A DNA stretch of 64,000 nt from Mycolicibacterium gilvum (GTDB lineage Bacteria > Actinomycetota > Actinomycetes > Mycobacteriales > Mycobacteriaceae), in contig NZ_UGQM01000001.1 of NCBI RefSeq assembly GCF_900454025.1, positions 3,534,001 to 3,598,000 of the forward strand. Direction: 5' to 3'. Numbering within the stretch: position 1 is the first letter of the stretch; every line of letters starts with the position of its first letter. The notes beneath the pieces are model-generated. The model did no database searches. It had not been told where the DNA came from and was given only the letters and a program-made list of their open reading frames with translations. Positions 4,382-58,516 of the stretch are shown here, piece by piece. The position numbers were made by a program, and so were the translations under genes.

Positions 4382-4384
4382 GTG

Positions 4385-6345: not shown

Positions 6346-6347
6346 CC

Positions 6348-9263: not shown

Positions 9264-9361
9264 CTGTTGACCGGCTAATCGGGGACGGTACTGGCATGTA
9301 AACGACACGCCAGCAAGGAAAATGCTTGACCGGTGGGGGCCGGCGGGGTTGCACTTGTCTT

Positions 9362-15276: not shown

Positions 15277-17214
15277 TTAGTGCGCTGACTCGAGGTTGTC
15301 GCGCAGCGCGTCCTCGGTGACGAAATCCGTGAGGTCGGCATCGTGTGTCATGAGCCAATAGTCGACGACTCGGTACGGCGAGTTGGTGACGACTCGACCG
15401 CGGCTGTTTCGGTAGTAGGTCGTCATGCCCGGGTGGCTCCACACCAACTTCGAATGTTGCGTGTCGACTTCATTTACCCAGCGGTCGTGTATCTCTGGAC
15501 GGCATTCCACTGCGCCGAGGCCGGCGGCAATCATCTTGGTGATGACATCGATGATGTAGCGGGCTTGGGATTCCCCGATGAAGAAGTAGGAGCCGCCGGA
15601 ACCGGAATTCGTATTGGGTCCATACATCAGGAACAAGTTCGGGAAGCCCGGCACGGTTATGCCGAGGTGCGCCGTGGCATCGTCTTCGCCCCACGCCTCA
15701 TGTATCCGTTTGCCCTCGCGCCCAATGAATTCGATCGGTTGCAGGTAGCTGGTCGTCTCGAAACCGGTCGAGAAAACCAGAATGTCAGCGTCGAACTGCT
15801 CACCAGCGGTGGTCACGACCCCGGATTCGGTGATCTCTGCGATACCGTCCGTGACGAGGGTCACGTCGTCGCGCTTGAGCGCAGCGAACCACCCATTGTC
15901 GAGGAGCATGCGCTTGCCGAAGGGCGGGTAATCCGGGAGGCACTTCTCGATGAGATCCGGCCGCCCCTCGAGCTGATCGACCAGATAGCGCGTGAAGTAG
16001 CGGCGGTGGCCGTCGTTGATCGGGTTGAGCGATCGCTTCGAATCGCCCCATTCCGGATCGATCGTCAGCGACGGATGGATACGATCGTTGAACGTCCATG
16101 CCAGCCGGAATCGGTACCAGGCGTGGTAATTCGGGACGTGCTTCATCAGCCAGTGCACGTCTTCGGGGATCGCAGCGAAGTACTCCGCGCAGGGAGCAAC
16201 CCACTGCGGGGAGCGCTGGAAGATGGTCAGTTGTTCCACCTGGTCGACGATGGCAGGCACTAGCTGCATTGCGCTCGCGCCGCTTCCGATGACGGCAATC
16301 CGCTTTCCGCTGATCTCGAGGTGTTCGGGCCAGTCGGCGGTGTGAAACTTAGGTCCTCGGAATTTGTCTAGCCCCGGGATATCTGGTGTCTTGGGCTTAT
16401 CGAACAGCCCGACACCGCTGATGACGACGTTGCCGCAATGGGCCTTGACGCTGCCGTCTTCAGAACGCGCATACACCGTCCAGCGTTGGGTGTCCTCATC
16501 GTACTCCGCGCGCTCGACTCGGGTGCCGAAGGCGATGTCGCGCCGAATGTCAAAGTGGTCCACGGCTTCTTGGATGTAGGCCACCATTTCGTCGCGCTTA
16601 CCGAAGTGCATTGACCAATCACGGGGGAAAAAGGAGAAGGAGTACAGATAGCTCGGCGTGTCGACGCCGGCCCCCGGATAGCGGTTGGTGAGCCACACTC
16701 CACCGACATCGCTGCTGCGTTCGAGGATGACGAACGGAATCCCGAGTTGGCGTAGCCGGGCCGCGGCGATGATGCCTGAAATCCCGGCGCCGATGATGAC
16801 GACCGAGAAATCCTCGACCGCTAGGGGTTCGGGGTCGGGCGTCGGCGCTAGGCCCATCTCCTCGCGCATCACTCGCTCGTACTCCGGCGGGACGTCCTCA
16901 TCGACACAGATGCTAAGCATCTTGCGCAGCAGCTCGGGATCGGGCAGCGGGACCGCCGCCGACTTACCCGCCGACCATGCTGAAATGGCCGATACCGCGC
17001 ACCGGCGAATCTCGTTGGCCACATCGGGGTCAAAACCGCCGGAATCGTTGGGACTCAGCCCTGATGAACGGGTGGGACGGAACGGATCGTTGAGCCAGCG
17101 TTCCTCGCCGGTGAGCTGATACAGAACCATGGTCAGCGTGGGCAGGTTGGCAGCATTCACGGCGTGCTCCAAACGCCGCTCGTCGATCGGGCTATCCGGC
17201 GGGGTCATCGACAT
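15277..17214 (-). CDS. Baeyer-Villiger-type flavin monooxygenase
   Basis: 645 residues from ATG 17214 (MSMTPPDSPIDER), chosen because AAGGAG lies just upstream. It should insert oxygen next to a ketone to give an ester or lactone, using FAD and NADPH. Motifs: FAD-binding GAGISG near residue 141, the Baeyer-Villiger fingerprint FRGPKFHTADWP, and a second nucleotide motif GSGASA. The roughly 140-residue N-terminal extension before the first Rossmann fold marks it as one of the long forms of the family. It follows the aldehyde dehydrogenase gene after a 238-bp gap that holds a palindromic operator-like site, so it can be controlled separately. Confidence 0.9.
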   Translation of the reverse strand: MSMTPPDSPIDERRLEHAVNAANLPTLTMVLYQLTGEERWLNDPFRPTRSSGLSPNDSGGFDPDVANEIRRCAVSAISAWSAGKSAAVPLPDPELLRKMLSICVDEDVPPEYERVMREEMGLAPTPDPEPLAVEDFSVVIIGAGISGIIAAARLRQLGIPFVILERSSDVGGVWLTNRYPGAGVDTPSYLYSFSFFPRDWSMHFGKRDEMVAYIQEAVDHFDIRRDIAFGTRVERAEYDEDTQRWTVYARSEDGSVKAHCGNVVISGVGLFDKPKTPDIPGLDKFRGPKFHTADWPEHLEISGKRIAVIGSGASAMQLVPAIVDQVEQLTIFQRSPQWVAPCAEYFAAIPEDVHWLMKHVPNYHAWYRFRLAWTFNDRIHPSLTIDPEWGDSKRSLNPINDGHRRYFTRYLVDQLEGRPDLIEKCLPDYPPFGKRMLLDNGWFAALKRDDVTLVTDGIAEITESGVVTTAGEQFDADILVFSTGFETTSYLQPIEFIGREGKRIHEAWGEDDATAHLGITVPGFPNLFLMYGPNTNSGSGGSYFFIGESQARYIIDVITKMIAAGLGAVECRPEIHDRWVNEVDTQHSKLVWSHPGMTTYYRNSRGRVVTNSPYRVVDYWLMTHDADLTDFVTEDALRDNLESAH

Positions 17215-17266
17215 AGGAATCTTCTCCTTGGTACGCCCGGGGCGGCCTGCGCAACCCGGCACTTGT

Positions 17267-17452: not shown

Positions 17453-19027
17453 TCAGCGTCTGTTCGCGCGACCCATCCTGCGGCGCCAATCGTGGGCGCC
17501 GAGCAGTCGCACCAGTTTGGCTTGCAGTTTGCTCTTCGTCGGGATGTAGGGATACCAGTGCGGCTCGGAACTGAGGGTGAAGCGCTCTGAGACCACTGAT
17601 TGTTGCCGGCAGAACTTGAGGATCCCGGCGGGGCCGCCCGAGCGGCTGCCCAGACCTGATTCCTTCCAGCCACTCATCGGAATGGTCAATTGAAAGGTGC
17701 TCATCATGACGTTGTTCTGATTGACTGCGCCGGCATCGAGCTTGCGGGTGATGCGATCGGCACGGTCCGGGTCGCGGGTCCATACGCTAGCGCTCAACCC
17801 GTAGTGCGAGTCGTTGGCCAACCGGATGGCCTCATCTTCGTCGGCGACCTTCATGATCGGCAGTGTGGGGCCGAAGGTTTCGTCGCGCATGCACAGCATG
17901 CTGTGGTCGACGTCCACGAGAACGGTGGGTTCGAAGAATTGTCCGTGGGGGCCACGTTTTCCGCCGGCCAGGACGGTAGCCCCCTTGGCCACGGCGTCCT
18001 GGACGTGATGTTCGACGATGTCCAGTTGCGCCGGGGTGCACATGGCTCCCACATCAGTGCTGAAGCTGCCGTCGGGATCCATGCCCTGGCGGAGCGCCTT
18101 GACCTTCTCGGTCACTTTCGCAACGAACTCGTCGTATACCGGAGTTTCGACGTAGACCCGCTCGACGGAAATGCAGATTTGTCCCGAGTTCCACATCGAG
18201 CCCCACGCGGCGGCGCCGGCCGCTCGGTCGATGTCGGCATCTGCCAAGACGATCATCGGGTCCTTACCGCCCAGCTCAAGGCTGCACGGAATCAATCGCT
18301 CGGCCGCACGCGCGGCGATCTTGCGTCCGGTGCTTGTGGATCCGGTGAACATCACCATGTCGACTTCGTCGACGACGGCCGCACCGGTCTGCGGGCCGCC
18401 GGTCACGTTGGCCATCACTGGGGGGGCGCCGATGTCCTCGAGCCAACCTCTGGTGGCTTCTTGCCATGTCAAGGGCGTGAATTCAGAGGGCTTGAAAAGC
18501 ACTGCTGCACCGGCCATTAGCGCTGCCACACCGTCGAGCATGGGGCCGCCCAACGGGCCGTTCCAGGGCGTGAGCATGCCTACCAGTTGATAGGGGCGGG
18601 TAAAGACCCGCAGCTTCTTGGTGACGGCGTTGGGTCCCCAGCCTGCGACCTTGCGATCGGCGAGGAATTCGGCGGCGTGTCCGCTGTAGTAGTTGATCAG
18701 GTCGACAGCCATGGAGATTTCCAGTGCTGCATCCCCCCACGATTTGCCGGTCTCTTCCTGCATGATGCCGACCAGGTGAGTTTCGTTGTCCAGGATCCAG
18801 TCGAGGAAATTGCGCATGTGGGCTGCGCGTCCGGTTGGTCCGAGGTCTTCCCATGCCGGCTGGGCGGCGCGCAGTCGCGTCGCCGCGCTCGCCACTTCGG
18901 CCGGTCCGAGGTCGGGCACACTGGCGATCAGGCGTCCATCGGCGGGGCAGCGCACCTCGATGACAGCACCGCGAGCGCCGTTGACATCGCTGTCGTCGGG
19001 CCGGGAAGCAGTCTGTGCTGTAGCCAT
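17453..19027 (-). CDS. NAD(P)-dependent aldehyde dehydrogenase
   Basis: 524 residues from ATG 19027, with AGAGGAG upstream. It oxidises an aldehyde to the acid. The catalytic Cys is in NSGQICISVERV, the general-base Glu in SLELGGKDPM and the cofactor loop in MFTGSTSTGRK. The C-terminal tail after QFTL-like motifs is longer than usual and rich in Arg (HDWRRRMGRANRR). It lies 30 bases after the MaoC gene, so it probably belongs to the P450-led transcript. It could act after an alcohol oxidation by the SDR or GMC enzymes of the window. Confidence 0.88.
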   Translation of the reverse strand: MATAQTASRPDDSDVNGARGAVIEVRCPADGRLIASVPDLGPAEVASAATRLRAAQPAWEDLGPTGRAAHMRNFLDWILDNETHLVGIMQEETGKSWGDAALEISMAVDLINYYSGHAAEFLADRKVAGWGPNAVTKKLRVFTRPYQLVGMLTPWNGPLGGPMLDGVAALMAGAAVLFKPSEFTPLTWQEATRGWLEDIGAPPVMANVTGGPQTGAAVVDEVDMVMFTGSTSTGRKIAARAAERLIPCSLELGGKDPMIVLADADIDRAAGAAAWGSMWNSGQICISVERVYVETPVYDEFVAKVTEKVKALRQGMDPDGSFSTDVGAMCTPAQLDIVEHHVQDAVAKGATVLAGGKRGPHGQFFEPTVLVDVDHSMLCMRDETFGPTLPIMKVADEDEAIRLANDSHYGLSASVWTRDPDRADRITRKLDAGAVNQNNVMMSTFQLTIPMSGWKESGLGSRSGGPAGILKFCRQQSVVSERFTLSSEPHWYPYIPTKSKLQAKLVRLLGAHDWRRRMGRANRR

Positions 19028-19057: not shown

Positions 19058-19543
19058 TCAGCCGTCAGTGGTTGCCGACGGGGGGCTGCAGATCACCAGC
19101 GCAGCCCGTCGCGCGGTGCATACCATTGCTCCGCGTTGGTTGGTGCCGCGGTGCTCAAAGGTTACGACCCCTTGTCCTGGCCGCGAGGTGGACGGGCGTT
19201 TGTCGAGGATCTCGGTCTCGGCAGTCAGGGTGTCACCGATCAGGACTGGCGCGGGAAACCGGATGTCGGAGAATCCGAGGTTGGCGACGGTCGTTCCTTC
19301 GGTGAGGTCGGCGACGCTGAGACCCACCACGGTCGATAGCGTGAACAGACTATTGACGAGGCGTTCACCGAACTCTTGTGTCGCGGCGAACGCCGCGTCC
19401 AGATGCAGACTCTGGGTGTTCATGGTCAGCGTGGTGAACAGCACGTTGTCGGCCTCGGTCACAGTGCGCCCGGGCCGATGCTCGTACACGTCGCCGACGA
19501 TGAGCTCCTCGAGATACTTCCCGCGCCGACGGTAGATGGTCAC
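19058..19543 (-). CDS. MaoC-like acyl-CoA dehydratase
   Basis: 161 residues, GTG start overlapping the CoA-transferase stop (GTGA). Hot-dog fold family with a single MaoC domain: YLEELIVGDVYEHRPGRTVTEADN at the N-terminus is typical of the mesaconyl-CoA hydratase-like branch, and the segment NTQSLHLDAAFA replaces the classic GDxNPLH hydratase motif but keeps the His. It may hydrate an enoyl-CoA. The exact substrate cannot be told from sequence. Confidence 0.8.
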   Translation of the reverse strand: MTIYRRRGKYLEELIVGDVYEHRPGRTVTEADNVLFTTLTMNTQSLHLDAAFAATQEFGERLVNSLFTLSTVVGLSVADLTEGTTVANLGFSDIRFPAPVLIGDTLTAETEILDKRPSTSRPGQGVVTFEHRGTNQRGAMVCTARRAALVICSPPSATTDG

Positions 19544-20793
19544 GGCGTGCCCTGGGCGAGAGCTGTCAACGTGTGCCGGTGGTCGGGATGGGCGATCTCG
19601 ATCAGCGCCTGTCGCCGCTCGGCGAGGCTGCGCCCGTCGAGGCGCGCCACGCCGTATTCCGTCACCACCACATCGACCATGGAACGGGGAATGGTGACCG
19701 CGGCAACCGAACCCACGATGCGCGAGAACCCTTTGGGCGTGGCCGAGGGCAGCGCAATTATGCGCAACCCGCCGGCCGAGCGGCTGGCGGCGTCGACGAA
19801 GTCGAGGCTGCCACCCACTCCGGAGATCTGCCTTCCCCGCAGCACCTCGCTGTTCACCTGGCCGTTGATATCGACCTCGACGGCGGTGTTGATCGAGACC
19901 AGTCGTGGTGTACGAGCCAATATCCGGGCATTATGTGATGTTGCGGAGGGATGGACCGCGACGGCGGGGTTATAGTCGGCGAAACGCATGAGGCGCGTAG
20001 TGCCCATCAGTTCCGGTGACAAGATTGCAGGTTGGTCGCCATCGACTGGAATAACACCCTGATCGAACAGATTCACCATCTCGTCGGTGGCCATTCCGGT
20101 GAACCGCACCGTGCCGAGGTTCGCGCCCGCCAGGGAGTTGACGACCGCTTCGGGAATGGAGCCGATGCCGATTTGCAGAGTTGGATGCTCGGGCAACAGG
20201 TTCACGATGAGTTCTGCGATGCGATTACTGATCTCGCTGGGCGGTGCGGATTGGTATTGCGGTGTCTGCTCGGCGGTGTCGATCAGCGCATCGAACAACG
20301 ATTCATGGACGGTGGTATTGCCAAGAGTCCATGGCAGGTCTGGGTCGATCTCGCCAATGCGGACCCGGGCCAGCCGCAGGGCGTCGAGGTTATAGCCGGC
20401 GGAGGGTCCTAGCGAGCAGTAGCCGTGCCGGTCCGGGGGGGTTATCCGCACCAGTGCGACGTCCACCCCCCAGGCCTCCAAGAGCGCGGCGATCCGGGAG
20501 GCGCGCGTCGGCACGAATTTGGCAACGCCGTCGGCAATCAGATCCGCGATCGGCGCCATGACATGCCAAGTGCAGTACTGGAGGTCTCCGGCGCGGACCG
20601 CGTCGAGGAACGGATAGTCGCCCAGCAGAAGCCCCGAGCTCAGGGTCCAATCCCGACCGTGGGCTTCTTTGCTCAGCGCCTGCAGCAGGGTGGTTGGTGC
20701 GCCGCAACCGGGTGCGGCCACCAGATGTGCACCGTCGCCGGCCAGCATCAGCGCGTCGGCGGGCTCCATCGTGCGCGAAGTCGCTCGCCTCAT
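19540..20793 (-). CDS. Acetyl-CoA hydrolase/transferase family CoA-transferase
   Basis: 417 residues from ATG 20793 (MRRATSRTMEPADAL), whose ATGA overlaps the preceding gene's stop. The family moves CoA between acetyl-CoA and an acid such as 4-hydroxybutyrate, or hydrolyses acyl-CoA. Motifs: IGIGSIPEAV mid-protein, and SEVLRGRQISGVGGSLDF, the C-terminal Gly-rich segment that follows the catalytic Glu region. It could activate an acid product of the aldehyde dehydrogenase or release a short acid. An upstream in-frame extension to 20916 lies inside the preceding gene and has no ribosome-binding site. Confidence 0.85.
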   Translation of the reverse strand: MRRATSRTMEPADALMLAGDGAHLVAAPGCGAPTTLLQALSKEAHGRDWTLSSGLLLGDYPFLDAVRAGDLQYCTWHVMAPIADLIADGVAKFVPTRASRIAALLEAWGVDVALVRITPPDRHGYCSLGPSAGYNLDALRLARVRIGEIDPDLPWTLGNTTVHESLFDALIDTAEQTPQYQSAPPSEISNRIAELIVNLLPEHPTLQIGIGSIPEAVVNSLAGANLGTVRFTGMATDEMVNLFDQGVIPVDGDQPAILSPELMGTTRLMRFADYNPAVAVHPSATSHNARILARTPRLVSINTAVEVDINGQVNSEVLRGRQISGVGGSLDFVDAASRSAGGLRIIALPSATPKGFSRIVGSVAAVTIPRSMVDVVVTEYGVARLDGRSLAERRQALIEIAHPDHRHTLTALAQGTP

Positions 20794-21218
20794 TGCGGCT
20801 GCGCCATCGCGGCTTCGACCGCGGTTTTGGAGAATGCCTCGTCGAATGCCCGCTCGTCGGACTGGAATTCGTCGACTTCGACGATCCGGCCGTTGGCGAT
20901 GCGATACACCAGGCACTCCCGCAGGCGCACCGTCTTGCCGCCGACGTTCACGATGCCGTACTGGTATGCGGCGGCGTACTCGGCGCTGGTGGTGATGTCG
21001 ATGATCTCGAATTGTGCTGGGCCGGTGAATATCCGCTTCATTTTGCCGAACAGCGCAAAGATGGCGCTGCGACCGGCATAGACGCCCGAGAGTGCGTTGG
21101 CGCCGGGCACTCGCCAGATGCAGCTCTCGTCGAGTGCGGCTTCAATCCCCGCCCGGTCCTGACCGGATAGCGCGGCCATGAGGCGGCGCACGAGCTGTGC
21201 GTTCGGATGTTCGGTCAT
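20790..21218 (-). CDS. SnoaL/NTF2-like protein
   Basis: 142 residues from ATG 21218, with AGGAAGGAACC upstream. It has the cone-shaped NTF2 fold: an N-terminal helix pair (NAQLVRRLMAALSGQDRAGIEAALDE), a Trp-containing strand (CIWRVPGAN) and C-terminal strands (RIVEVDEFQSDE). Members are isomerases, epoxide hydrolases or simple binding proteins. No catalytic set specific to ketosteroid isomerase or limonene-epoxide hydrolase is clear. It sits 20 bases after a MaoC gene and overlaps the CoA-transferase gene. Confidence 0.7.
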   Translation of the reverse strand: MTEHPNAQLVRRLMAALSGQDRAGIEAALDESCIWRVPGANALSGVYAGRSAIFALFGKMKRIFTGPAQFEIIDITTSAEYAAAYQYGIVNVGGKTVRLRECLVYRIANGRIVEVDEFQSDERAFDEAFSKTAVEAAMAQPQ

Positions 21219-21238
21219 CGGTTCCTTCCTCACAAAAG

Positions 21239-21661
21239 TCAGACGCGGGCCGTCGCATCGCCCGACAGCACAACTACGCCGTGATGATTGGTTGTGCGGA
21301 TCTCGAAGTCGACCTCATCGCCGTGCGCACTGCTGCGTACGGCGACTGCCGTTGCCACTGCGTGTAGTGCGTCACCTGGCCACACGGGGTGCACGAAACG
21401 TGCTCGGTATCGCACCAGTCGATTTCGGCCTACCCACTCGGCCAGCAGCGTTTCGGTGGCCGCCATCGTCAACATGCCGTGGGCCATGACGCTGGGGTAT
21501 CCCGACAGCTGCGCCCACGGTTCGTCGGTGTGCAGCGGGCTGTAGTCACCGGAAGCAGCTGCATACTGGACGATTTGGGTGCGGGTCACTTCGGCGTCCA
21601 CCACCGCCTCGCGGCGGGCGCCGATGACGAATTTCTGGTCGGTGTGGAGATCGCTACCCAT
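21239..21661 (-). CDS. MaoC-like hydratase, C-type subunit of a pair
   Basis: 140 residues from ATG 21661 (MGSDLHTDQKF), overlapping the previous stop by eight bases (ATGGGTAG). The hydratase motif is YAAASGDYSPLHTDEPWA, with the catalytic Asp and His spaced as in R-specific enoyl-CoA hydratases but Ser in place of the usual Asn. Together with the neighbouring N-type protein it probably forms a heteromeric hydratase of the kind used in mycobacterial sterol side-chain breakdown (ChsH1-ChsH2). Confidence 0.82.
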   Translation of the reverse strand: MGSDLHTDQKFVIGARREAVVDAEVTRTQIVQYAAASGDYSPLHTDEPWAQLSGYPSVMAHGMLTMAATETLLAEWVGRNRLVRYRARFVHPVWPGDALHAVATAVAVRSSAHGDEVDFEIRTTNHHGVVVLSGDATARV

Positions 21662-22106
21662 GGCCGGCGTCGACCTCATTAGCGGCGAACTCGGTGTCGA
21701 CCAGAACCATTCGCGAACGCAGAACCAGCTCGCCCGCAGTATTTCGATACTCCCTGATGAGCTCTCGGAATTTCAGCGTCCCGGGCCGCCGACTTTGCTT
21801 TTGCCAGCTGGCGCCTTCGTATTCTGTGACCGCAAGGCGATCTCCCACGTGCATGCCAGCGAAGTACTCGAATTCTTGCTCAGCGTGAAGCACGCTGCCG
21901 CCCGGCGTTGAACTACCAACTGCCAACGCCCCCGTGGGGCGTAGGCCCCGCATGTGTTGGGGATCGAATTGGATTGACGCGGCGGGGAAGGTCAGCGGCA
22001 CCACAGTCCCGTTTTCCGGCACTTCGCGAGCGAGTCGCTGGTCGCCAACAGCTCGAGCAAACGCCAGAACATGACCCGGCTCGATCTCGAAAGTGTAAGT
22101 CCCCAT
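21654..22106 (-). CDS. MaoC N-terminal-like (FAS1-type) dehydratase subunit
   Basis: 150 residues, TAATG overlap with the DUF35 stop. The sequence TYTFEIEPGHVLAFARAVGD, the Asp-containing SIQFDPQHM and HAEQEFEYFAGMHVGDRL are typical of the substrate-binding half of split MaoC hydratases (MaoC_dehydrat_N). It lacks the catalytic Asp-His motif of its partner, so it should contribute the acyl-binding tunnel. The same two-gene order occurs again at 55341-56272. Confidence 0.82.
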   Translation of the reverse strand: MGTYTFEIEPGHVLAFARAVGDQRLAREVPENGTVVPLTFPAASIQFDPQHMRGLRPTGALAVGSSTPGGSVLHAEQEFEYFAGMHVGDRLAVTEYEGASWQKQSRRPGTLKFRELIREYRNTAGELVLRSRMVLVDTEFAANEVDAGHG

Positions 22107-22528
22107 TACGGCTCCGGAGTGACTGGCCGAAAGCGGGGCAGAGCACCGTCACCACCGGTGGCGCAGAACACCACCTCCACAGGTTGGCCGATCGACAACT
22201 CGGTGGGATCGCAGCCGATGATGTTGGTCAGCATCTTGGGACCCTCATCGAGTTCGACCATGGCGAGTACGTAGGAGCCGGCGTCTGCGTATTCCAGGAT
22301 TCCGCGGGTCGTCACCGTGTGGCTGTAAATGCTGCCCCGGCCGCTGGCCTCGATGTAGGCCAGGTTGGTGTGGTGGCAATTCGCGCAGACGTATCGGGGG
22401 TAGTAGCCGGCGAGTCCACAGTCTGCACACCGCTGCAGCAACAACTTCCCGTCCAGCGTCGCGGCCCAGAACACCGAGGTGTCGGGTGTGACACCCGGCG
22501 GCGGCGACGGTAATTGGGGTGCGCTCAT
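22106..22528 (-). CDS. DUF35 zinc-ribbon/OB-fold protein, partner of the thiolase-fold enzyme
   Basis: 140 residues, ATGA overlap with the thiolase-like gene. The zinc ribbon is C-x2-C...C-x2-C (RCADCGLAGYYPRYVCANC) and is followed by an OB fold (GRGSIYSHTVTTRG). DUF35 proteins partner thiolase-fold enzymes. In ChsH2-Ltp2 the DUF35 domain is required for retro-aldol cleavage of a sterol side chain. The gene order thiolase > DUF35 > MaoC pair matches such a hydration plus aldol-cleavage module. Confidence 0.88.
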   Translation of the reverse strand: MSAPQLPSPPPGVTPDTSVFWAATLDGKLLLQRCADCGLAGYYPRYVCANCHHTNLAYIEASGRGSIYSHTVTTRGILEYADAGSYVLAMVELDEGPKMLTNIIGCDPTELSIGQPVEVVFCATGGDGALPRFRPVTPEP

Positions 22529-23691
22529 GCGTCCTCCCGGCCTAGAACGACGGTCGCGTTGCCCATGCGTGTGCTCAGCCAGCCCCCGGTTCCGTGGGCC
22601 AGCGCAAGGTTGCAGTCAGAGATCTGCACGGCGGGATGGGCTTCGCCGCGCAGCTGACGGACTGCCTCGATGATTTTCGTCATTCCCCCGCGGTTGGCCG
22701 GGTGGTTGTTACATAGGGATCCGCCGTCGGTGTTGAACGGCAGTCGGCCATGGGGAGCCTGCAGCGCACCGTCGAGGACGAACGTGCCGCCGTCGCCCTT
22801 GGCGCAGAAGCCCAAGTCTTCGAGCGCCAACAACACGGTGATGGTGAACGAGTCGTACAGCCCGACGTAATCGATGTCGGCAGGACGCACCCCGGCCTCG
22901 GCGAACGCGTCGCTGCCCGACCGCACACCACCGGTCACGGTGATGTCTTGCCAGCCGCCGCGGGTGTGCTCGACGGTCTCTCCGTGTCCGAGGATTTTCA
23001 CGCAGTCGCGGTCCAGCGTGGAGGCGACGTCGTCAGCGACGATCACGAGGGCTCCCCCACCGTCGGTGACTACGCAGCAATCAAGGCGATGCAGCGGCGT
23101 CGACACCATCGGGGAATTCACCACGTCCTCGACAGTGACGACCTTCGGCAACAGGGCGTGTGGGTTGTGTTGAGCGTGTGTTGAGGCGGCCACTTTGATT
23201 TCGGCGAGTTGCTCGCTGGTGGTCCCGTATTGATACATGTGCCGTTGCGCCGCAAGGGCGTATAGCGCACTGACGTTAGCTCCGAAAATCGGTTCGAACG
23301 ATTTTTCCGGCGGATCGCCCATCAGCTGCCCGGGGGCCCGCAGCGAGGTCGTGCGGGGGCGCCCTCCCAAAGTGATGAGCGCGATCCGGCATTTCCCGGC
23401 GGCGACGGCTGCCGCGGCATGCCCCACGTGGGACATGTACACCGAGCCACCCATGTCGGAGCTGTCCATGTAGCGCAATTTGAGGCCGAGGTAGTCGGCC
23501 ATCGCCAGACCCCCCAGCCCAGGGGCGTCGCCCCCGCAGAAGTAGCCGTCGACATCGGCGAGGTCAAGGCCGGCGTCGGCCAGGGCACCCAGGGCTACTT
23601 CGGCGTGAATCTGCGGGATCGACTTGTCGGGCAGTTCGCGTCCGGGATGTTCGAAAGCCCCTGCGATGAAAGCTTTTCCTTTGATGGACAT
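22525..23691 (-). CDS. Thiolase-fold lipid-transfer-protein-like enzyme (Ltp2-type aldolase candidate)
   Basis: 388 residues, ATG overlapping the SDR stop (TGATG). It resembles SCP2-type thiolases: GYFCGGDAPGLGG near residue 50, CNNHPANRGGMTKIIEAVRQ in the C-terminal half and AHGTGGWLST near the end. At the position where thiolases carry the nucleophilic Cys the sequence reads MDSSDMGGSVYMSHVGH, with no Cys. The same lack is known for Ltp2-type retro-aldolases. With the DUF35 and MaoC neighbours, the likely reaction is cleavage of a beta-hydroxyacyl-CoA to a shorter ketone or aldehyde plus acetyl-CoA or propionyl-CoA. Confidence 0.82.
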   Translation of the reverse strand: MSIKGKAFIAGAFEHPGRELPDKSIPQIHAEVALGALADAGLDLADVDGYFCGGDAPGLGGLAMADYLGLKLRYMDSSDMGGSVYMSHVGHAAAAVAAGKCRIALITLGGRPRTTSLRAPGQLMGDPPEKSFEPIFGANVSALYALAAQRHMYQYGTTSEQLAEIKVAASTHAQHNPHALLPKVVTVEDVVNSPMVSTPLHRLDCCVVTDGGGALVIVADDVASTLDRDCVKILGHGETVEHTRGGWQDITVTGGVRSGSDAFAEAGVRPADIDYVGLYDSFTITVLLALEDLGFCAKGDGGTFVLDGALQAPHGRLPFNTDGGSLCNNHPANRGGMTKIIEAVRQLRGEAHPAVQISDCNLALAHGTGGWLSTRMGNATVVLGREDA

Positions 23692-24581
23692 CAGATGAAC
23701 GGGTTCGGCGGGGCCGCTTCGGTGATGGGACGGAATTGTGTCTCCACCTCTTTGGCCATTTCCTGCAGATCCCAGGGGCCCTCCGAGCGCAGGGTCACCA
23801 GTGGTTCGGGGTCGCTGTAGAGCGACACCTCATAGCCCCGCGCGTGCACCACGTGACCGTTGAGCCATCCGGATTGCTCAGAGCCCAGGTAAGCGGCGAT
23901 GGGGGCGATACTGTCGGGCGAGAGTTCGTTGCCACCCGTGCTGTAGGCGTCGTCTTTGATGGTCGCCGTCATCCGCGTTGCCGCTGCCGGCGAGACGGCG
24001 TTGGTCGTCACTCCGTACTTCTTGAGCGCGAACGCGCACGAATAGGTCAGTCCGACGATCCCCATCTTCGCGGCGGAGTAATTCGGCTGTCCGGGGGCCC
24101 CGTGCAGGCCGGCCCTCGAGGTGTAGTTGATGATTCTGTGTTGGGCGTTGGGATTGTCGAGTTTGCGCCAGTAAGCGGCGGCAGGCCTGATGGTGTTGAA
24201 ATGCCCTTTGAGGTGGACCCGAATCACGGCGTCCCACTCCTCTTCGGTCATGTTGAAGATCATCCGATCACGCAAGATTCCGGCGACATTCACCAGTACA
24301 TCGAGCTTTCCGAACCGCTCGATGGTTGACTCGACGAGATCGCGGGCAGCCTCGTGGTCGGAGATGTCGGCCCCGTTCGTGATCGCGGTGCCGCCATTTT
24401 GCTCAATCTCATGCGCCAGTTCGAGTGCTGGGTTGCCGTCGCTTTCCAGCCCACTCAGCGACGCCCCAATGTCATTGATGACGACCGTGGCTCCCTCGCG
24501 GGCGAACAGCCGGGCGACCGCGCCGCCGATGCCGCGGCCACCACCGGTGACGATGGCTACACGCCCCTCCATAATTCCCAT
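23691..24581 (-). CDS. Short-chain dehydrogenase, 3-hydroxyacyl-CoA dehydrogenase type
   Basis: 296 residues. The NAD-binding motif TGGGRGIGGAVARLF, the NVAG strand and the catalytic YSAAK with upstream Ser (NYTSRAG) are all present. The length and the C-terminal stretch (YSDPEPLVTLRSEGPWDLQEMA) resemble the dehydrogenase part of the 17-beta-HSD4/MFE-2 group that oxidises 3-hydroxyacyl-CoA esters. Start ATG 24581 is three bases after the P450 stop. It could oxidise either a hydroxyacyl-CoA or an alcohol made by the P450. Confidence 0.85.
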   Translation of the reverse strand: MGIMEGRVAIVTGGGRGIGGAVARLFAREGATVVINDIGASLSGLESDGNPALELAHEIEQNGGTAITNGADISDHEAARDLVESTIERFGKLDVLVNVAGILRDRMIFNMTEEEWDAVIRVHLKGHFNTIRPAAAYWRKLDNPNAQHRIINYTSRAGLHGAPGQPNYSAAKMGIVGLTYSCAFALKKYGVTTNAVSPAAATRMTATIKDDAYSTGGNELSPDSIAPIAAYLGSEQSGWLNGHVVHARGYEVSLYSDPEPLVTLRSEGPWDLQEMAKEVETQFRPITEAAPPNPFI

Positions 24582-24584
24582 AGA

Positions 24585-25817
24585 TCAACGCTCCAGAAAG
24601 ACCGGCAGTGCAATGGGGCCACGGGCGAATGCCGGTCGATACTTCACTTCGTAGCCGGGTTGGAGCTGAAAGACACTCAACTCACTAATCGCGCGGACTG
24701 CTGCTTTGAGCTCCCGCCGCGCCAGGTGATTGCCAAGGCATCGATGGATCCCGGCGCCGAAAGCCAGGTGCGCCGAACCATTCGGACGATTGAAATCGAG
24801 GGTGTCTGGATCGGGGAATTTCTCCGGATCATGGTTGGCCGCAGCCCAATTCAGCAAGATGCGGTCGCCACTTCTCATCGGGCAGCCGCGAACTTCGGTG
24901 TCGGCGGTCAGCGTCCGCCCGGCCGTGGGAACCGGTGTTTCCAGCCGAAGGAATTCCTCGACATGCTTGTCCAGCACTTTGTCGCTGGCACCGCGCAGGC
25001 TTTCACGCAGATCGTTGTCCGTGCTCAGGATGCGGGCGATGCCGGCCAACGCCCCCATCGTGGTCTCCATGCCGCCCATGATTGCCATGTTCAGCGTCTC
25101 CATCCTGGTCCGGTCGTCGAGTTCGAGCCCGTCGTCGAATTCCCCGGTGCCGAGGTGGGCGATCACCCCCGCCAGGTCGTCGGTTCGCCCCTCGTCGCGG
25201 CGCTTCTGCAGCAGCTCGATGCAGAACATGAACAATTTCGGGGCGACTTCGAGCGCTCTGTCGGGTTGTGTCAACAGGACGTCGAGGACCTCCAGAACCC
25301 AGCCGATGTCGGTGGACTTCTGGTCCAGGAAGCTTTCGAAAAATACGATCGGCGGCAGTTGGGAGGTGAAGCCGGCAATGAAGTCCGCGGGGCTCTGCTT
25401 CACACAGTTGTCGATCAGGCGGTCGACGGTCGCACGGATGCTGGGCTCGGCTGCGGCTAGCGCCTCGGGCGTGAACAATGGGTTGAGCGCCTTGCGAACA
25501 CCGCGATGCAGAGGCGGATCGGTCTCCAGCGGCACCATCCGGAGGATGTCGAGATCGAACTGGACTGGCGCCGCGCCCTCAGCACTGCTGAAGACGTTCC
25601 AGTTGACCGCTGCATCCATCACGTCTTGGTACTTGTTGATCACCCAGAAGCCCGTGTCCTCCGCACTCCAGTGCGCGGTGCTGAACACGACCGGACATGT
25701 CTCCCGCAACGCGTTGACCCGAGGCCAGAAGTCGTCGGCGAGTTCGAGGTCGAGCGGATTGAAGTCGACGGGCGATGTGCCGACCGGTGCCGGTTCGGCG
25801 ATGTCGTGCTCGGTCAT
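24585..25817 (-). CDS. Cytochrome P450 (first gene of the catabolic operon)
   Basis: 410 residues from ATG 25817 (MTEHDIAEPAPVG), with CAGGAG upstream. A soluble bacterial class-I P450: I-helix motif MGGMETTMG (acid-Thr pair, with Glu), ExxR in EEFLRLETP and the haem-Cys loop FGAGIHRCLGNH. It needs ferredoxin and ferredoxin reductase, both encoded divergently at 26129-27738. It probably does the first hydroxylation of the substrate. I cannot assign a CYP family from sequence alone. Confidence 0.92.
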   Translation of the reverse strand: MTEHDIAEPAPVGTSPVDFNPLDLELADDFWPRVNALRETCPVVFSTAHWSAEDTGFWVINKYQDVMDAAVNWNVFSSAEGAAPVQFDLDILRMVPLETDPPLHRGVRKALNPLFTPEALAAAEPSIRATVDRLIDNCVKQSPADFIAGFTSQLPPIVFFESFLDQKSTDIGWVLEVLDVLLTQPDRALEVAPKLFMFCIELLQKRRDEGRTDDLAGVIAHLGTGEFDDGLELDDRTRMETLNMAIMGGMETTMGALAGIARILSTDNDLRESLRGASDKVLDKHVEEFLRLETPVPTAGRTLTADTEVRGCPMRSGDRILLNWAAANHDPEKFPDPDTLDFNRPNGSAHLAFGAGIHRCLGNHLARRELKAAVRAISELSVFQLQPGYEVKYRPAFARGPIALPVFLER

Positions 25818-25934
25818 GTTGCAGCTCCTGTCTGAAGTCTCGCCCTGCACATTGAATCCCGTGTCGGCCGGCGGGTCACGTCGGCGGCCCGATTCCGGAT
25901 CATCCGCATCCTGAGATCAAATCCTACGCAGATT

Positions 25935-25953: not shown

Positions 25954-26128
25954 TACTTCTGGGCCTGAAGCTGTCAAGCGCGTCACATCTGCGGCAAGAA
26001 ACGCTGGAAGTTGTGCTCGCGGTGCCGATCACCCCGCCGGACCGGCACCGCGAGTGGTCTGGGCGTTGGTGCAACAGATTCGGTTTTCGTTTAGACTGCC
26101 CACTACGAGCGTGCAGGAGGTAGCAGTC

Positions 26129-26452
26129 GTGGTGAAAGTGACATACATCCGCCCCAGCGGCGACGCGGTGATCGTGGAGGTGGCCGAGGGAATCTCGGTC
26201 ATGCAAGGCGCGATCGCCAACGAAGTTTCGGAGATCGTCGCCGAGTGCGGGGGCACTCTGGCGTGTGCCACATGCCACGTGTATGTCGATGGGGACCATG
26301 CAGAGCGGCTGGCCACACCCAGCGAAGACGAACAGGAGATGCTCGACTACACCGCGTCGCCTCGTATGGCGAACTCTCGGTTAAGTTGTCAGATCTTAGT
26401 CGGACCCGAAGTTGACGGCCTCGTCGTGCGAGTGCCGCCCACCCAGTTATGA
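26129..26452 (+). CDS. [2Fe-2S] ferredoxin, adrenodoxin/putidaredoxin type
   Basis: 107 residues from GTG 26129 (VVKVTYIRPSG), set by AGGAGG eight bases upstream. Cluster ligands follow the C-x5-C-x2-C pattern (CGGTLACATC) with the fourth Cys in RLSCQI. It carries electrons from the next gene's reductase to the P450. It overlaps the reductase gene by four bases (ATGA). Confidence 0.93.
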   Translation: MVKVTYIRPSGDAVIVEVAEGISVMQGAIANEVSEIVAECGGTLACATCHVYVDGDHAERLATPSEDEQEMLDYTASPRMANSRLSCQILVGPEVDGLVVRVPPTQL

Positions 26453-27738
26453 CATCGGCGCTTATGCCAGCCACCGTTGTCATAGCCGGCGCGGGCCAAG
26501 CCGGTGCCAGCACGGCTGCAGCACTGCGCGAGTTCGGATTTCCGGGACGGATCGTGCTTGTCGGTGACGAACCGTATTTGCCGTATCAACGGCCGCCCTT
26601 GTCCAAAGGCCACCTCGCTGGCGTGAACGCCCAGGAAGGCCTCTGGCTGCATCCCAACAGCTTCTACGCGCACCACGAGATCGACTTGATGCTCGACGAT
26701 TCGGTACGCCGGATTGATCGCAACAACGCTCGGGTCGAACTCGCGAGTGGGGCGGTACTGGACTACGACCGTCTGGTGCTCGCCCTTGGGGGGCGTAACC
26801 GCGCCTTGCCTGTCGCTGGAGCCGACCTCGACGGTGTTGTCGGACTGCGGAGTCTGGATGAGGCCGACGACATTCGGGATCGGCTAAGTCGCGCCCGCAA
26901 TGTCGTGGTGATTGGCGGCGGCTTCATCGGACTCGAAGTCGCCGCGACAGCGGTAAAGCTGGGCGTGGATGCCGTCGTAATCGAGGTCTCCGACCAACTG
27001 ATGGGGCGCGTCGTGTCGCCTGAGATGGGCCGCATTCTTCTGGACGCTCATCGAGCTCGCGGATTGCACGTTGCCTTGGGCACGAGTGTCCGCGCGATGA
27101 CGGGGGTGGCGGGCCGCGTCAACGCTGTCGTGACGAGCGACGGCCACGAACTCCCCGCCGACCTGGTGCTGGTGGGGATCGGCGCGATTCCCAACACCGA
27201 GATCGCCGAGCGCGCTGGGCTTCGCGTTGACAACGGGATTGTTGTTGACGAATACCTCGCCACTGACGACACGCAGATCTCGGCGGTGGGCGATTGCGCG
27301 GTCTGTCCCAACCCATTCGCCAGCGGGCGCAACGTGCGACTGGAGTCGGTACACAACGCCACGGCGCAGGCACGGTTTCTGGCCGCGCGTCTTGTCGGCC
27401 GGGCCGAACCCTACGTGAGCGTTCCATGGTTCTGGAGCAATCAGGGCGATCTGAAACTGCAAATCGCTGGACTTCGCGGTCCGTCAGGCCACAACGTCTT
27501 TCGCGGAGATCCGGCCAGTGGCCGGTTTTCGGTCTTCTGTTTCGAAGGCGACGTGCTGCGTTGCGTCGAGTCCCTCAACCGACCAGGCGACCACATGGCT
27601 GCGCGCAAGCTGTTAGCGGATGGTGTCGCCCTAACCCCCGATCAAGCGAGCGACCTCACTGTTGACCTTCGCACACACCTCGCTGAGGCCACCGTCGAGC
27701 CGGTCCTCACCGATGACCGGACTCCCGCGCGGGGCTAG
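26449..27738 (+). CDS. FAD-dependent ferredoxin reductase (putidaredoxin/rhodocoxin type)
   Basis: 429 residues. FAD motif VVIAGAGQAGASTA near the N-terminus, NAD(P)-binding VVVIGGGFIGLEVAA mid-protein, and the second FAD contact STDDTQISAVGDCA-like segment (ISAVGDCAVCPNPF). This is the standard architecture of oxygenase-coupled ferredoxin reductases. It passes electrons from NADH to the ferredoxin encoded immediately upstream, completing a three-component P450 system. Confidence 0.93.
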   Translation: MTSALMPATVVIAGAGQAGASTAAALREFGFPGRIVLVGDEPYLPYQRPPLSKGHLAGVNAQEGLWLHPNSFYAHHEIDLMLDDSVRRIDRNNARVELASGAVLDYDRLVLALGGRNRALPVAGADLDGVVGLRSLDEADDIRDRLSRARNVVVIGGGFIGLEVAATAVKLGVDAVVIEVSDQLMGRVVSPEMGRILLDAHRARGLHVALGTSVRAMTGVAGRVNAVVTSDGHELPADLVLVGIGAIPNTEIAERAGLRVDNGIVVDEYLATDDTQISAVGDCAVCPNPFASGRNVRLESVHNATAQARFLAARLVGRAEPYVSVPWFWSNQGDLKLQIAGLRGPSGHNVFRGDPASGRFSVFCFEGDVLRCVESLNRPGDHMAARKLLADGVALTPDQASDLTVDLRTHLAEATVEPVLTDDRTPARG

Positions 27739-30449: not shown

Positions 30450-30553
30450 ACTCCAAACGTTGAAGGGTGCTCACTTTTCGACTGTCGACCGTCGCGTAAT
30501 TCCCCCGGGGTGTCCGTCATGTAATTCCGCCACCGGTGGGCCTCGGTGTAGGT

Positions 30554-31333
30554 CTACCGGGTGGGCTTGGCGTTGTCTACCGGCGCGCTAGCGCCGGGTC
30601 TTTTTCGGGGTCGGTAGCTGGGTCCGTCCATCAGGATCTGGTGGCTGGTGTTGATCAGGCGGTCGAGCAGCGACTCGGCGACGACGGGGTTGGGGAACAG
30701 GTTGTACCAGTCCTTCGGTGATCGGTTGGAGGTCAGGATGAGGGGGCGGCCGTTGACGGCGCGATCGGAGATCAACTCGTAGAGGTCGTCGGCGTGCATC
30801 GCGGTGTGTTCGCGCATGGCGAAGTCGTCGAGGATCAGCACGAGCGGTTTGGTGTATTCGCGGATGCGTTGACCCCAGCTGCGATCGGCGTGACCGCCGG
30901 CGAGGTCGGAGAGTACCCGGGAGGTCTTGGCGAATCGGACGTCGCCGCCGCGGCGGGCCACTGCGTGCCCAAGCGCTTGTGCCATATGGGTTTTCCCGAC
31001 TCCGACGGGTCCGTAGAGGATCACTGATTCGGCGGCGTCGAGCCACCGCAGTGCGGCCAGGTCGCGCAGCATCGCCGCGGGCAGCTTGGTGTTGGCGGTG
31101 AAGTCGAAGGATTCGAATGTCGATTGTTCCTCGAAGCGGGCTCGGCGGATGCGCCGGGTGAGGGCGGCGGATTCTCTGCGGGCGATCTCGTCTTCGCAGA
31201 GCACCTGGAGGAAGTCGAGGTGCCCGAGGGTGCCGTCGCGGGTCTGCGCCAGCCGGGCATCCAGGGTGTCGAGCATGCCGGTGAGTTTGAGGGTGCGCAG
31301 CGCATTGCGTAGTGCGGGGTCGAGGATGCTCAT
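30554..31333 (-). CDS. istB: IstB-like ATP-binding protein of IS21-B copy 1
   Basis: 259 residues. Walker A GPVGVGKTHMAQ, Walker B LVLILDDFAM, followed by ILTSNRSPKDW. AAA+ transposition helper. It starts 63 bases after the istA stop and is intact, with the same sequence as the copy-2 protein. Confidence 0.93.
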   Translation of the reverse strand: MSILDPALRNALRTLKLTGMLDTLDARLAQTRDGTLGHLDFLQVLCEDEIARRESAALTRRIRRARFEEQSTFESFDFTANTKLPAAMLRDLAALRWLDAAESVILYGPVGVGKTHMAQALGHAVARRGGDVRFAKTSRVLSDLAGGHADRSWGQRIREYTKPLVLILDDFAMREHTAMHADDLYELISDRAVNGRPLILTSNRSPKDWYNLFPNPVVAESLLDRLINTSHQILMDGPSYRPRKRPGASAPVDNAKPTR

Positions 31334-31396
31334 GGTGGTGATGTCCTTAGGTTCAGATCGAATGATGTTGGTTGCCAGCTGGATACGATGCGTTGA

Positions 31397-32959
31397 TCAC
31401 GCGATCTCGCCGGTGGTGGTGTCGAAGGCTTGCGGCCCGCGCAGATGCGCCGCGGCTTGCGGGGCGGCGGATTCGATGATGCCGTCGAGTTCGGTGCCGG
31501 CGGCCAGGATGCCCTTGACCGTGCGGTAGCTCGGGTCGCCGACGGTGATCGCCCGCGCGCAGGCGGCTTCCAGGCGGTCGTGGCCGACGGTCTTGAGCAA
31601 GGCGAGGACGCCTTGAGCGCTGCGCAGTCGGTGGATGGCGTTGACTTCCATGAATTCGGCGATCACCTGGGTACAGGCCGGTCCGACCTCGGCGGCTACT
31701 CGGCGACACCAGGTCGGGTTGCGCATCGTGAAGGCGATCTTCTCCGGCGGGTAGTGCTCGAAGTCGGTGGCCCGCCCACGGTGATGGGTGACGTGGGTGG
31801 CCACGACGTCGCCGTCGTGCACGATCTGCACCAGGTCGCCGCACGTGCGGGCGTGGACCTGTTGGCCCATCAGCCGCCACGGCACCGAGTAGAGCGCCTT
31901 GCCGACTTTCACGTGGCAGTCGGCGGCGACCTTGCCCGTCGACCACACCGCAAGTTGGAAATCACTGTGCGGCAACGGCAACAGGGCATGCTGTTCAACG
32001 GTGGAGAACACGAACCCTGGTTGCTCACCGTCGAGTGCCCGAGAGTTTCGCGCCCCGGCTACCTCACGGCACCAGACCAGCGCGGCGGCCTGCATCTGCT
32101 CCAGCGAGGTGAACTCGCGGCCCCGCCAGAACGAGTCCCGAATGTATTGCATCGGGCGCTCGACGCGTGGTTTGTCCTTCGGCTTGTTCGCCCGCGCCGG
32201 GTCGATCAGGCAACCGTAGTGGGCACCCAGTTCGGCGTAGGCCTTGTTGATCTTCGGGTCATAGAGATCCGGTCGAGTGACACCGGTCTTCAGGTTGTCC
32301 GGGACCAGCCGGGCCGGGACGCCACCGAAGAACTCGAACGCTGCCACATGCGAAGCGCACCAGGAGGATTGATGCATCTTCAGGACCGGTTGGACGAACA
32401 GATGCCGCGAATGGGCCAGCACCATCACGAACGCCCACACCGTCACGCGTCGACCACTGACTGGGTCGAACCACATCCCGAGGCGGCCGTAGTCGATCTG
32501 GGCCTCGCTGCCCGCTGGCACCGATCCGCGGGCCACGGTCACCTTCTCCCGCGTCGCCTCTTCGGAGAGGTTCGCCGAGATCCACCTGCGCACTGAGGAT
32601 TCCGACGCGGCAACGCCATAGTCGTCACGCAGCCGCTGCGCCACGGTCGCCGCACTGACCTCGGCCTTGAGCCAGTCACGGATCCGGTCGCGGTGCACTT
32701 CGATGCCCGGCCAGGTCGTGGCCCGCAGACCGGGGTCGGCGACCTCGGGAAACCACCGACCAATGTGCGCCGCCCACTCGGGCTCGGTGACCGGCTCCCC
32801 GCCCGGGGTCAGCGACTCGGCGATCGCCGGCGCCAAATACTTCGCGATCGTCTTGCGGTCGATGCCCAAACTCTCCGACAGCTGGCGCTGAGACCGACCC
32901 GCATGCCAATGGGTCAACAACTCGATCAGGTCGAACACGTCGAAACTTCTCCTCGCCAT
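31397..32959 (-). CDS. istA: IstA transposase of IS21-B copy 1
   Basis: 520 residues from ATG 32959 (MARRSFDVFDLIELL), preceded by AGGAAGGGCGCCGA. It has a helix-turn-helix (QRQLSESLGIDRKTIAKYL), DDE core Asp in AQIDYGRLG and LVPDNLKTG, and Glu in KPRVERPMQYIRD. It is complete and probably active, given the identical second copy. Confidence 0.93.
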   Translation of the reverse strand: MARRSFDVFDLIELLTHWHAGRSQRQLSESLGIDRKTIAKYLAPAIAESLTPGGEPVTEPEWAAHIGRWFPEVADPGLRATTWPGIEVHRDRIRDWLKAEVSAATVAQRLRDDYGVAASESSVRRWISANLSEEATREKVTVARGSVPAGSEAQIDYGRLGMWFDPVSGRRVTVWAFVMVLAHSRHLFVQPVLKMHQSSWCASHVAAFEFFGGVPARLVPDNLKTGVTRPDLYDPKINKAYAELGAHYGCLIDPARANKPKDKPRVERPMQYIRDSFWRGREFTSLEQMQAAALVWCREVAGARNSRALDGEQPGFVFSTVEQHALLPLPHSDFQLAVWSTGKVAADCHVKVGKALYSVPWRLMGQQVHARTCGDLVQIVHDGDVVATHVTHHRGRATDFEHYPPEKIAFTMRNPTWCRRVAAEVGPACTQVIAEFMEVNAIHRLRSAQGVLALLKTVGHDRLEAACARAITVGDPSYRTVKGILAAGTELDGIIESAAPQAAAHLRGPQAFDTTTGEIA

Positions 32960-41884: not shown

Positions 41885-41914
41885 TCTCGGTACCCCTCAT
41901 CAATTCCGTTGTAG

Positions 41915-43081: not shown

Positions 43082-43099
43082 TGTTTGGCACCTTTCTGG

Positions 43100-45339: not shown

Positions 45340-45343
45340 TCGC

Positions 45344-58514: not shown

Positions 58515-58516
58515 GG

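Follow-up and report, generated by a model that had tools for sequence, protein, structure and literature searches.

A Cys-less thiolase-fold, DUF35 and MaoC gene module in Mycolicibacterium gilvum, a probable variant of the hydratase–retro-aldolase systems of side-chain degradation

Thiolase-fold proteins are known to break carbon–carbon bonds in the side chains of steroids by retro-aldol reaction, and a similar step has been inferred genetically for ibuprofen. In the sterol system, ChsH1 bears the His/Asp dyad and ChsH2 contributes a MaoC domain without the dyad (PMC11321319). For the aldolases, PMC12329534 describes Tyr294 as the base (in the motif YDHF), His296 in the oxyanion hole and Tyr344 as the acid of TcLtp2, and Tyr302, Cys304 and Gln352 in CtSal, with Gln352 equated with Tyr344 of Ltp2; according to the same source, Sal carries a Gly in place of the nucleophilic Cys, loses its activity with the C304S exchange, and belongs to a kind of aldolase wanted as biocatalysts. 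The action of IpfD–IpfE in ibuprofen degradation yields propionyl-CoA (PMC9195938). In the open-licence literature we recognised no paper on the cluster described here or on a Sal/Ltp2-like system for non-steroids other than ibuprofen. The present analysis concerns four genes at positions 21239–23691 of a 64,000-nucleotide stretch of the Mycolicibacterium gilvum genome (contig NZ_UGQM01000001.1, positions 3,534,001 to 3,598,000; hereafter the window), which probably form a hydratase–aldolase module that works like ChsH1–ChsH2–Ltp2 and yet is a separate variant.

The four-gene module and its active site

A sequence-only reading of the window had proposed four overlapping genes in this region, and the open reading frames (ORFs) were found at exactly those coordinates:

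22525–23691, minus strand: Cys-less thiolase-fold protein, proposed retro-aldolase; 388 aa, NF006010/PRK08142
22106–22528, minus strand: DUF35 protein (zinc ribbon and OB fold), encoded by a gene of its own and presumably paired with the thiolase-fold protein; 140 aa
21654–22106, minus strand: MaoC-fold subunit of the FAS1_DH type that lacks the catalytic His, presumably the ChsH2-N-like substrate-binding partner; 150 aa
21239–21679, minus strand: MaoC hydratase subunit with Asp45/His50 (SGDYSPLH), presumably the ChsH1-like catalytic subunit; 146 aa

Successive ORFs overlap by 4, 1 and 26 bases, and all four display coding-like GC content by codon position (0.66–0.79 at the third position, lowest for the 21654 ORF). 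The domain matches obtained with hmmscan are far above chance for all four proteins, namely NF006010 (8e-192) together with Pfam Thiolase_C_1 for the 22525 protein, OB_ChsH2_C (2e-19) and zf-ChsH2 (5e-10) for the 22106 protein, which bear out its proposed identity as a DUF35 zinc-ribbon protein, MaoC_dehydratas (7e-25) for the 21239 protein, and FAS1_DH_region (6e-10) for the 21654 protein. The same gene order was identified in a second copy of the cluster in this genome (copy 2), on the plasmids pRB98 and pDK3, and in Protofrankia.

The thiolase-fold protein belongs to NF006010/PRK08142, scoring 637.1 bits over residues 1–386 against a curated cut-off of 462. Across 87 family rows (the window protein and 86 ORFs above 400 bits, near-duplicates kept), Gly82, Tyr279, Asp280, Ser281, Phe282, Asn329, His330 and Pro331 are invariant. 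Gly82 occupies the position where the nucleophilic Cys of Cys thiolases aligns; the N-terminal Cys of SCP2-type or degradative thiolases is thus missing in all 87 rows, in contrast to the six thiolase-clade rows that have it, and the reading as an ordinary thiolase was rejected on this ground. The earlier description of the protein as Cys-less holds for the nucleophile but not for the whole chain, which has eight Cys residues elsewhere. Identity with Ltp2 was rejected as well: the PRK07855 score was 195.9 against a cut-off of 469, and two of the three Ltp2 active-site residues differ. The true PRK07855 protein of the source genome is encoded at another locus (L015, 9350–10648; 713.9 bits).

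The sequence-only reading had called for a search for Ltp2-type residues, and this search recovered the base but not the other two. The Tyr of the YDxF motif is present as Tyr279 in 87 of 87 rows, whereas Ser281 and His330 take the places of the YDHF His and of the acid Tyr344 in the MAFFT alignment. When aligned to Ltp2 by phmmer, Tyr344 falls opposite Asn333, with a three-residue gap at His330, and neither method puts a Tyr there. Compared to Sal (YDCY), the equivalent of Tyr302 is kept but that of Cys304 is Ser281, and His330 is situated opposite Gln352 in an ungapped alignment with 9myr. The signatures accordingly read YDHF plus Tyr in Ltp2, YDCY plus Gln in Sal, and YDSF plus His in the window protein. 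A 33-row tree separated the Cys-less proteins, with Ltp2 and IpfD among them, from the Cys thiolases (support 100/99). Its input included 15 of the 87 family rows, near relatives set apart, and 16 of the 18 non-family rows, with two L014 rows bearing YVPF and YAPF instead of YDxF left out, and the labels "Cys" and "Cysless" were assigned from motifs. Among solved structures, the model of the window protein reached its highest structural Z, 44.9, with Sal (9MYR); the models are single chains, and the predicted local distance difference test score (pLDDT) is below 50 at residues 114–138 and 325–333. Neither of the findings named beforehand as fatal to an aldolase, a nucleophilic Cys or clear orthology to a non-aldolase thiolase, was encountered. 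Judged by its residues, the PRK08142 protein represents a sister class of Ltp2 marked by a distinct signature at the active site.

The DUF35 protein has the zinc ribbon ligands C34-x2-C37-x10-C48-x2-C51, and its best PDB match is 6ok1_B, the DUF35 part of ChsH2 (7.7e-19). In the hydratase pair, Asp45 and His50 are kept in all four rows compared (the 21239 protein and its counterparts in copy 2, pRB98 and Protofrankia), whereas the 21654 protein has GD at the corresponding place with no His after it, the Asp being variable among relatives. The pair is therefore built as the sequence-only reading had it, like ChsH1/ChsH2, with the dyad in one subunit and none in its partner. A BLAST comparison of nine sequences found the DUF35 protein similar to the C-terminal region of the ChsH2 encoded in this genome (1e-12), the 21239 protein similar to ChsH1 (2e-4), and a second FAS1_DH protein in the distal part of the cluster similar to ChsH2-N (3e-6). 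Searched by sequence against the PDB, the 21654 protein gave no match at 0.1; its model (pLDDT 73) bears a moderate resemblance, with TM values of about 0.5–0.65, to HadA and itaconyl-CoA hydratase and, ranked 45th, to ChsH1–ChsH2.

The likeness to the ChsH1/ChsH2/Ltp2 arrangement consequently stands for the base Tyr and for the grouping with Ltp2 and IpfD types, but the aldolase candidate is not Ltp2, and DUF35 and the inert MaoC subunit, fused in ChsH2, are here encoded by separate ORFs with a 1-base overlap. Across at least 80 related loci (60–93% identity to the thiolase-fold protein), a DUF35 gene was adjacent in 78 of 80, a pair that is common by itself, and a FAS1_DH partner gene was rare beside it (1 of 80, or 2 of 80 under a looser search). 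Where the sequence extended 5 kb to either side, as at 54 of the 80 loci, we counted DUF35 (53), short-chain dehydrogenase/reductase (SDR; 28), MaoC-like (15), acyl-CoA dehydrogenase (14), class III CoA-transferase (13), cytochrome P450 (2) and Baeyer–Villiger monooxygenase (BVMO; 1) genes; in these raw counts, which have no background rate, no partner but DUF35 stands out as a guide to function. PRK08142 relatives also occur on haloarchaeal plasmids. The literature yielded no characterised member, in searches that did not use the family name itself as a term.

The surrounding cluster, its second copy and its relatives

The module is situated inside a cluster of about 50 kb, whose other features are as follows:

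15277–17262, minus strand: BVMO-type flavin monooxygenase, matched best in the PDB by steroid monooxygenase and cyclohexanone monooxygenases
17453–19027, minus strand: aldehyde dehydrogenase
19058–19543, minus strand: third MaoC protein, a relative of the RipB/Ich (R)-enoyl-CoA hydratases that scores 155 bits against a cut-off of 340
19540–20916, minus strand: CoA-transferase, acetyl-CoA hydrolase/transferase family
20790–21233, minus strand: SnoaL/NTF2-like protein
23691–24581, minus strand: SDR oxidoreductase, overlapping the thiolase-fold gene by 1 base; best models SDR/3-oxoacyl reductase families, below cut-off
24585–25850, minus strand: cytochrome P450 no. 1; best solved-structure matches CYP125 ancestor and CYP142
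26054–27738, plus strand: divergent 2Fe-2S ferredoxin and ferredoxin reductase, presumed P450 redox partners
36965–40314, minus strand: AMP-dependent acyl-CoA ligase gene in two pieces (36965–37909 and 39418–40314)
37939–39333, plus strand: IS1380-family transposase gene between the ligase pieces
40244–50216, minus strand: GMC oxidoreductase, acyl-CoA dehydrogenase, aldehyde dehydrogenase, SDR, amidohydrolase_2, ADP-forming-type acyl-CoA ligase and P450 no. 2, in the same order on pRB98 and pDK3
50622–51746, plus strand: acyl-CoA dehydrogenase, IpdE2-/pimD-like, both below cut-off
54581–62514: distal part with SDR, MaoC and FAS1_DH pair, acyl-CoA dehydrogenases, HMG-CoA lyase, class III CoA-transferase and TetR
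55341–55769 (MaoC) and within 55766–56632 (FAS1_DH): second MaoC and FAS1_DH pair
57531–58514: HMG-CoA lyase (377 bits, cut-off 246)
60001–61296, plus strand: tandem TetR regulator of 431 aa with two TetR_N and two TetR_C_24 domains, 78% identical in copy 2

The module had been described as driven by a P450 and followed by CoA-transferase and aldehyde dehydrogenase genes. P450 no. 1 is indeed located upstream, but the SDR gene lies between it and the thiolase-fold gene; the other two genes are also present, although the SnoaL-like and third MaoC genes lie between as well and the BVMO gene follows that of the aldehyde dehydrogenase. The nearest solved structures are too distant for a substrate to be inferred from the P450s.

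Apart from insertion sequence (IS) elements, P450 no. 1 and a few short ORFs, the genes at 12853–62514 recur in the same order at C1:334–372 kb of the same genome. Protein identity is 71–94%, except for the antisense ORF at 55889, itself doubtful, which shows 50%. In the stretches compared, copy 2 is 99.6–99.9% identical to a copy in another genome of the genus (G039). The ligase gene is uninterrupted in copy 2, in G039 and on both Rhodococcus plasmids, and the transposase that splits it in the window is a 100% identical protein at copy 2 (L104, 4650–6041). Copy 2 has one insertion within the aldehyde dehydrogenase gene and a second, with this same IS1380 transposase, just behind it, but G039 has neither. 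P450 no. 1 is absent from the corresponding place in copy 2 and G039; a 59% homologue is located at C1:328 kb (L123, 5275–6471), about 30 kb from the gap in copy 2. The core of the cluster, from P450 no. 2 to the BVMO, is found on pRB98 (Rhodococcus oxybenzonivorans) and pDK3 (Rhodococcus sp. DK17), where the thiolase-fold protein is 89% identical to that of the window. DK180 is a third matching record, Protofrankia coriariae bears a related set (83%), and Mycobacterium pinniadriaticum has a 93% match on a contig that stops just behind the thiolase-fold gene. We regard the whole as a mobile catabolic cluster that this genome carries twice.

Taken as a whole, the arrangement is rare. A word-limited search with the 21654 protein (base 5.8 billion) retrieved 52 proteins including its own. 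At 1e-15, four of the 198 genomes searched in the genus had a match, which was close (70% identity or more) in three, counting the own genome; in the order, 9 of 397 sampled genomes had one, and only that of the own genome was close.

Several other elements were observed at and beyond the cluster borders. Two tyrosine recombinase genes (9326–12323) lie at its left edge, and the pRB98 copy also has such genes beside it (L099, 28296–31009). An IS21-type element is present as two 100% identical inverted copies of 2645 bases (30482–33126 and 52046–54690) around a 19-kb part of the cluster. Genes of the nitrate assimilation type occupy 428–7559, including NarK- and NirB-like ones and one for a 1317-aa protein in which a molybdopterin nitrate-reductase-like part is joined to a CysJ-like flavoprotein part. 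Right of the window, at C1:3598131–3599535 (L011, 1379–2590), a Cys-containing thiolase gene (HDCF, GHP) is located beside a DUF35 match, and a comparable pair of matches is situated near copy 2 at C1:331413–332763.

Among the matches listed for 48 distinct ORFs of the window (42 scanned with NCBIfam, some at strict E-value limits, and 6 with Pfam only), none to a steroid-ring enzyme model attained the cut-off, in agreement with the earlier remark that no steroid-ring genes were in sight. Sterol genes are situated elsewhere in the genome, at a locus (L015) about 1.6 Mb from the window that encodes a 3-oxosteroid 1-dehydrogenase (986 bits, cut-off 788), the PRK07855 Ltp2 (714, cut-off 469) and a steroid 3-ketoacyl-CoA thiolase (756, cut-off 515). 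The genes between these matched no NCBIfam family at 1e-60; we take them to encode ChsH1, ChsH2, two dehydrogenases and a P450 from their igr-type order and weak similarity.

Proposed reactions and competing explanations

A heteromeric hydratase feeding a DUF35-bound retro-aldolase is the most likely arrangement, and the retro-aldol mechanism of the sequence-only reading remains the best-supported one. Taking gene content, gene order and residues, which are seen directly, as the guide to every reaction, we infer the following course. A methyl group would be oxidised by a P450 with its ferredoxin and reductase and then by the GMC oxidoreductase and aldehyde dehydrogenase, before activation by the CoA ligases and dehydrogenation by acyl-CoA dehydrogenases yield the acyl-CoA that enters the module, a cluster acyl-CoA dehydrogenase presumably making the alpha,beta-enoyl-CoA on a bulky substrate. 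The MaoC pair would hydrate this compound, with the 21239 protein supplying the Asp45/His50 dyad and the 21654 protein a roomy binding half, as ChsH1/ChsH2 suggest. The DUF35 protein may dock on a thiolase-fold dimer, to judge from 6OK1 and 9MYR, and retro-aldol cleavage of the beta-hydroxyacyl-CoA would give an acyl-CoA together with either a ketone or an aldehyde. Since there is no nucleophilic Cys, no acyl-enzyme would form at that position, which makes classical thiolysis unlikely. Because C304S inactivates Sal, Ser281, which as the third residue replaces the His of Ltp2 and the Cys of Sal, is an unlikely acid, and Tyr279 and His330 are the proposed catalytic pair: Tyr279 would take the proton of the beta-hydroxyl, and His330, aligned with Gln352 of Sal and through it with the acid Tyr344 of Ltp2, would protonate the acyl-CoA enolate. 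The departing aldehyde or ketone could be handled by the aldehyde dehydrogenase or the Baeyer–Villiger enzyme.

Several points weigh against this scheme. We know of no activity for any PRK08142 member. The C304S result also means that Ser281 cannot simply replace Cys, and the His-Pro pair occurs in Cys thiolases too (GHP), so that it may have been inherited from an ancestor and not be a mark of aldolases. The equivalence of His330 and Tyr344 depends on the alignment, given the phmmer result, and His330 falls within the poorly modelled residues 325–333. The structural Z is hardly lower for TbSLP (41.8–42.3) and the Cys-bearing Pyrococcus thiolase 7yvy (41.6), and this model-based measure leaves the function undecided. 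BLAST matched the 21654 protein to the distal FAS1_DH paralogue (37% identity, 3e-25) but not to ChsH2-N, with which it is connected through that paralogue. Finally, the coupled SDR could oxidise the beta-hydroxyl, which would point to a beta-ketoacyl substrate.

This last possibility is the strongest rival for the chemistry. Hydration would be followed by SDR oxidation and then by hydrolysis or unusual thiolysis of the beta-keto compound by the thiolase-fold protein, independently of a Cys. The 1-base overlap of the SDR and thiolase-fold genes, the reductase families among the best models of the SDR, the presence of SDR-type genes no more than 5 kb away at 28 of the 54 fully flanked loci and the retained thiolase-like His-Pro all fit such a route, but the nucleophile is absent in all 87 rows, YDSF replaces the HDCF-type motif, the SDR matches are unspecific and could reflect service to a ring or side-chain alcohol, and the Cys thiolase with its DUF35 match just right of the window already covers ordinary thiolysis; we consider the route decidedly unlikely. 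It is very improbable that the thiolase-fold protein is a catalytically dead scaffold for DUF35, as the loss of the Cys might suggest, since the Tyr, Asp, Ser, Asn, His and Pro of the active-site loops are invariant in all 87 rows, which argues for selection on catalysis.

Two further alternatives concern the substrate, which the sequence-only reading supposed to be branched. An accessory sterol cluster acting on a steroid or triterpenoid side chain is unlikely. The host possesses sterol genes, and P450 no. 1, the BVMO and the IpdE2-like acyl-CoA dehydrogenase (190 bits, cut-off 450) lead toward steroids, but all three leads are below cut-off or distant, no steroid-ring model reached its cut-off among the scanned window ORFs, and Ltp2, 3-oxosteroid 1-dehydrogenase and the steroid thiolase sit at the remote locus; moreover, within the genus the 21654 matches are confined to the four genomes mentioned, although sterol use is common there. 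We give similarly little credence to an aryl or phenylpropanoid-type substrate releasing an aromatic aldehyde or phenol together with acetyl- or propionyl-CoA, as IpfDE do on ibuprofen. The presumed IpfD of pIBU218 falls in the same Cys-less set with an adjoining DUF35 gene, and S2-17 is a degrader of benzophenone-3. DK17 degrades alkylbenzenes (PMC11984191). However, no ring-hydroxylating or ring-cleaving dioxygenase was identified among the scanned window ORFs, IpfD has Tyr at the position of the family's His, and in our judgement the GMC oxidoreductase, HMG-CoA lyase and BVMO fit an alicyclic isoprenoid better. Because of these same three enzymes, our first guess at the substrate, a tentative one, is a bulky, branched, terpenoid-like or isoprenoid ring compound.

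A broader proposal, which we put forward as possible though doubtful, is that PRK08142, which is widespread among actinobacteria and proteobacteria, constitutes a third class of DUF35-bound retro-aldolases, with an active site that combines Tyr and Ser with the His kept from thiolases and has no Cys, and that here it cuts an isopropyl- or 2-methylacyl-derived side chain off an alicyclic terpenoid as propionyl- or acetyl-CoA, the ring ketone being opened by the Baeyer–Villiger enzyme. If the retro-aldolase assignment is true, a widespread family labelled thiolase/acetyl-CoA acetyltransferase needs re-labelling, this class of aldolases gains a third catalytic solution, and a mobile catabolic cluster common to Rhodococcus and Mycobacterium receives its first mechanistic reading; if the terpenoid reading is also true, the logic of sterol side-chain degradation is applied to non-steroids.

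Comparison with known systems

When compared to ChsH1–ChsH2–Ltp2, which acts on the C3 side chain of sterols (4W78, 6OK1), the module shares an aldolase fold without the nucleophilic Cys, a C4 zinc-ribbon DUF35, a MaoC pair with one inert half and an acyl-CoA dehydrogenase in the cluster. In contrast to that system, it has YDSF with His instead of YDHF with Tyr, about 31–34% identity, separate genes for DUF35 and the inert MaoC protein, and no steroid-ring genes nearby. Shy–Sal, acting on the C5 side chain of bile acids, shares the closest structure, the Tyr base and the Gly at the Cys position, but differs in the essential Cys304 (Ser281 in the window protein), Gln352 (His330), the C3H1 zinc ligands of its DUF35 (C4 in the window) and a hydratase that is a homodimer fused to DUF35, whereas the window encodes a hetero-pair. 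The source genome itself carries a Sal-like YDCY protein with an adjoining DUF35 match (L012, 7439–8647), 20 DUF35 OB-domain matches and 25 thiolase-like matched stretches, some of which belong in twos to a single gene; those of its proteins that were aligned differ in the motif at the YDxF position, with YDHF, YDCY, YDCF, YDAF, YDGF, YDPF, HDCF and others.

IpfD–IpfE of pIBU218 likewise combines a Cys-less thiolase-fold protein with a separate DUF35 gene. The record calls the protein hypothetical, and we take it to be IpfD from its neighbours (DUF35, AMP-ligase and dioxygenase genes) and the known ipf gene order. It has YDAF with Tyr at the place of Ltp2 Tyr344 and 35% identity to the window protein, and it works with a ring dioxygenase, with no MaoC pair alongside. 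About 11 kb from these genes, pIBU218 bears a second, Ltp2-like pair (L108, 10939–12503; YDHF, Tyr) of a lipid-transfer and an OB-fold protein. BbsAB, the benzoylsuccinyl-CoA thiolase (7PXP), also consists of thiolase-fold and DUF35 subunits, but it is described as a thiolase, and the window protein scores 142.6 bits against a BbsB cut-off of 750. The "putative thiolase" 4U4E of Sphaerobacter thermophilus, whose entry title names no function, shares with the window protein 43–44% identity, YDSF, the His-Pro pair and the Gly in place of Cys.

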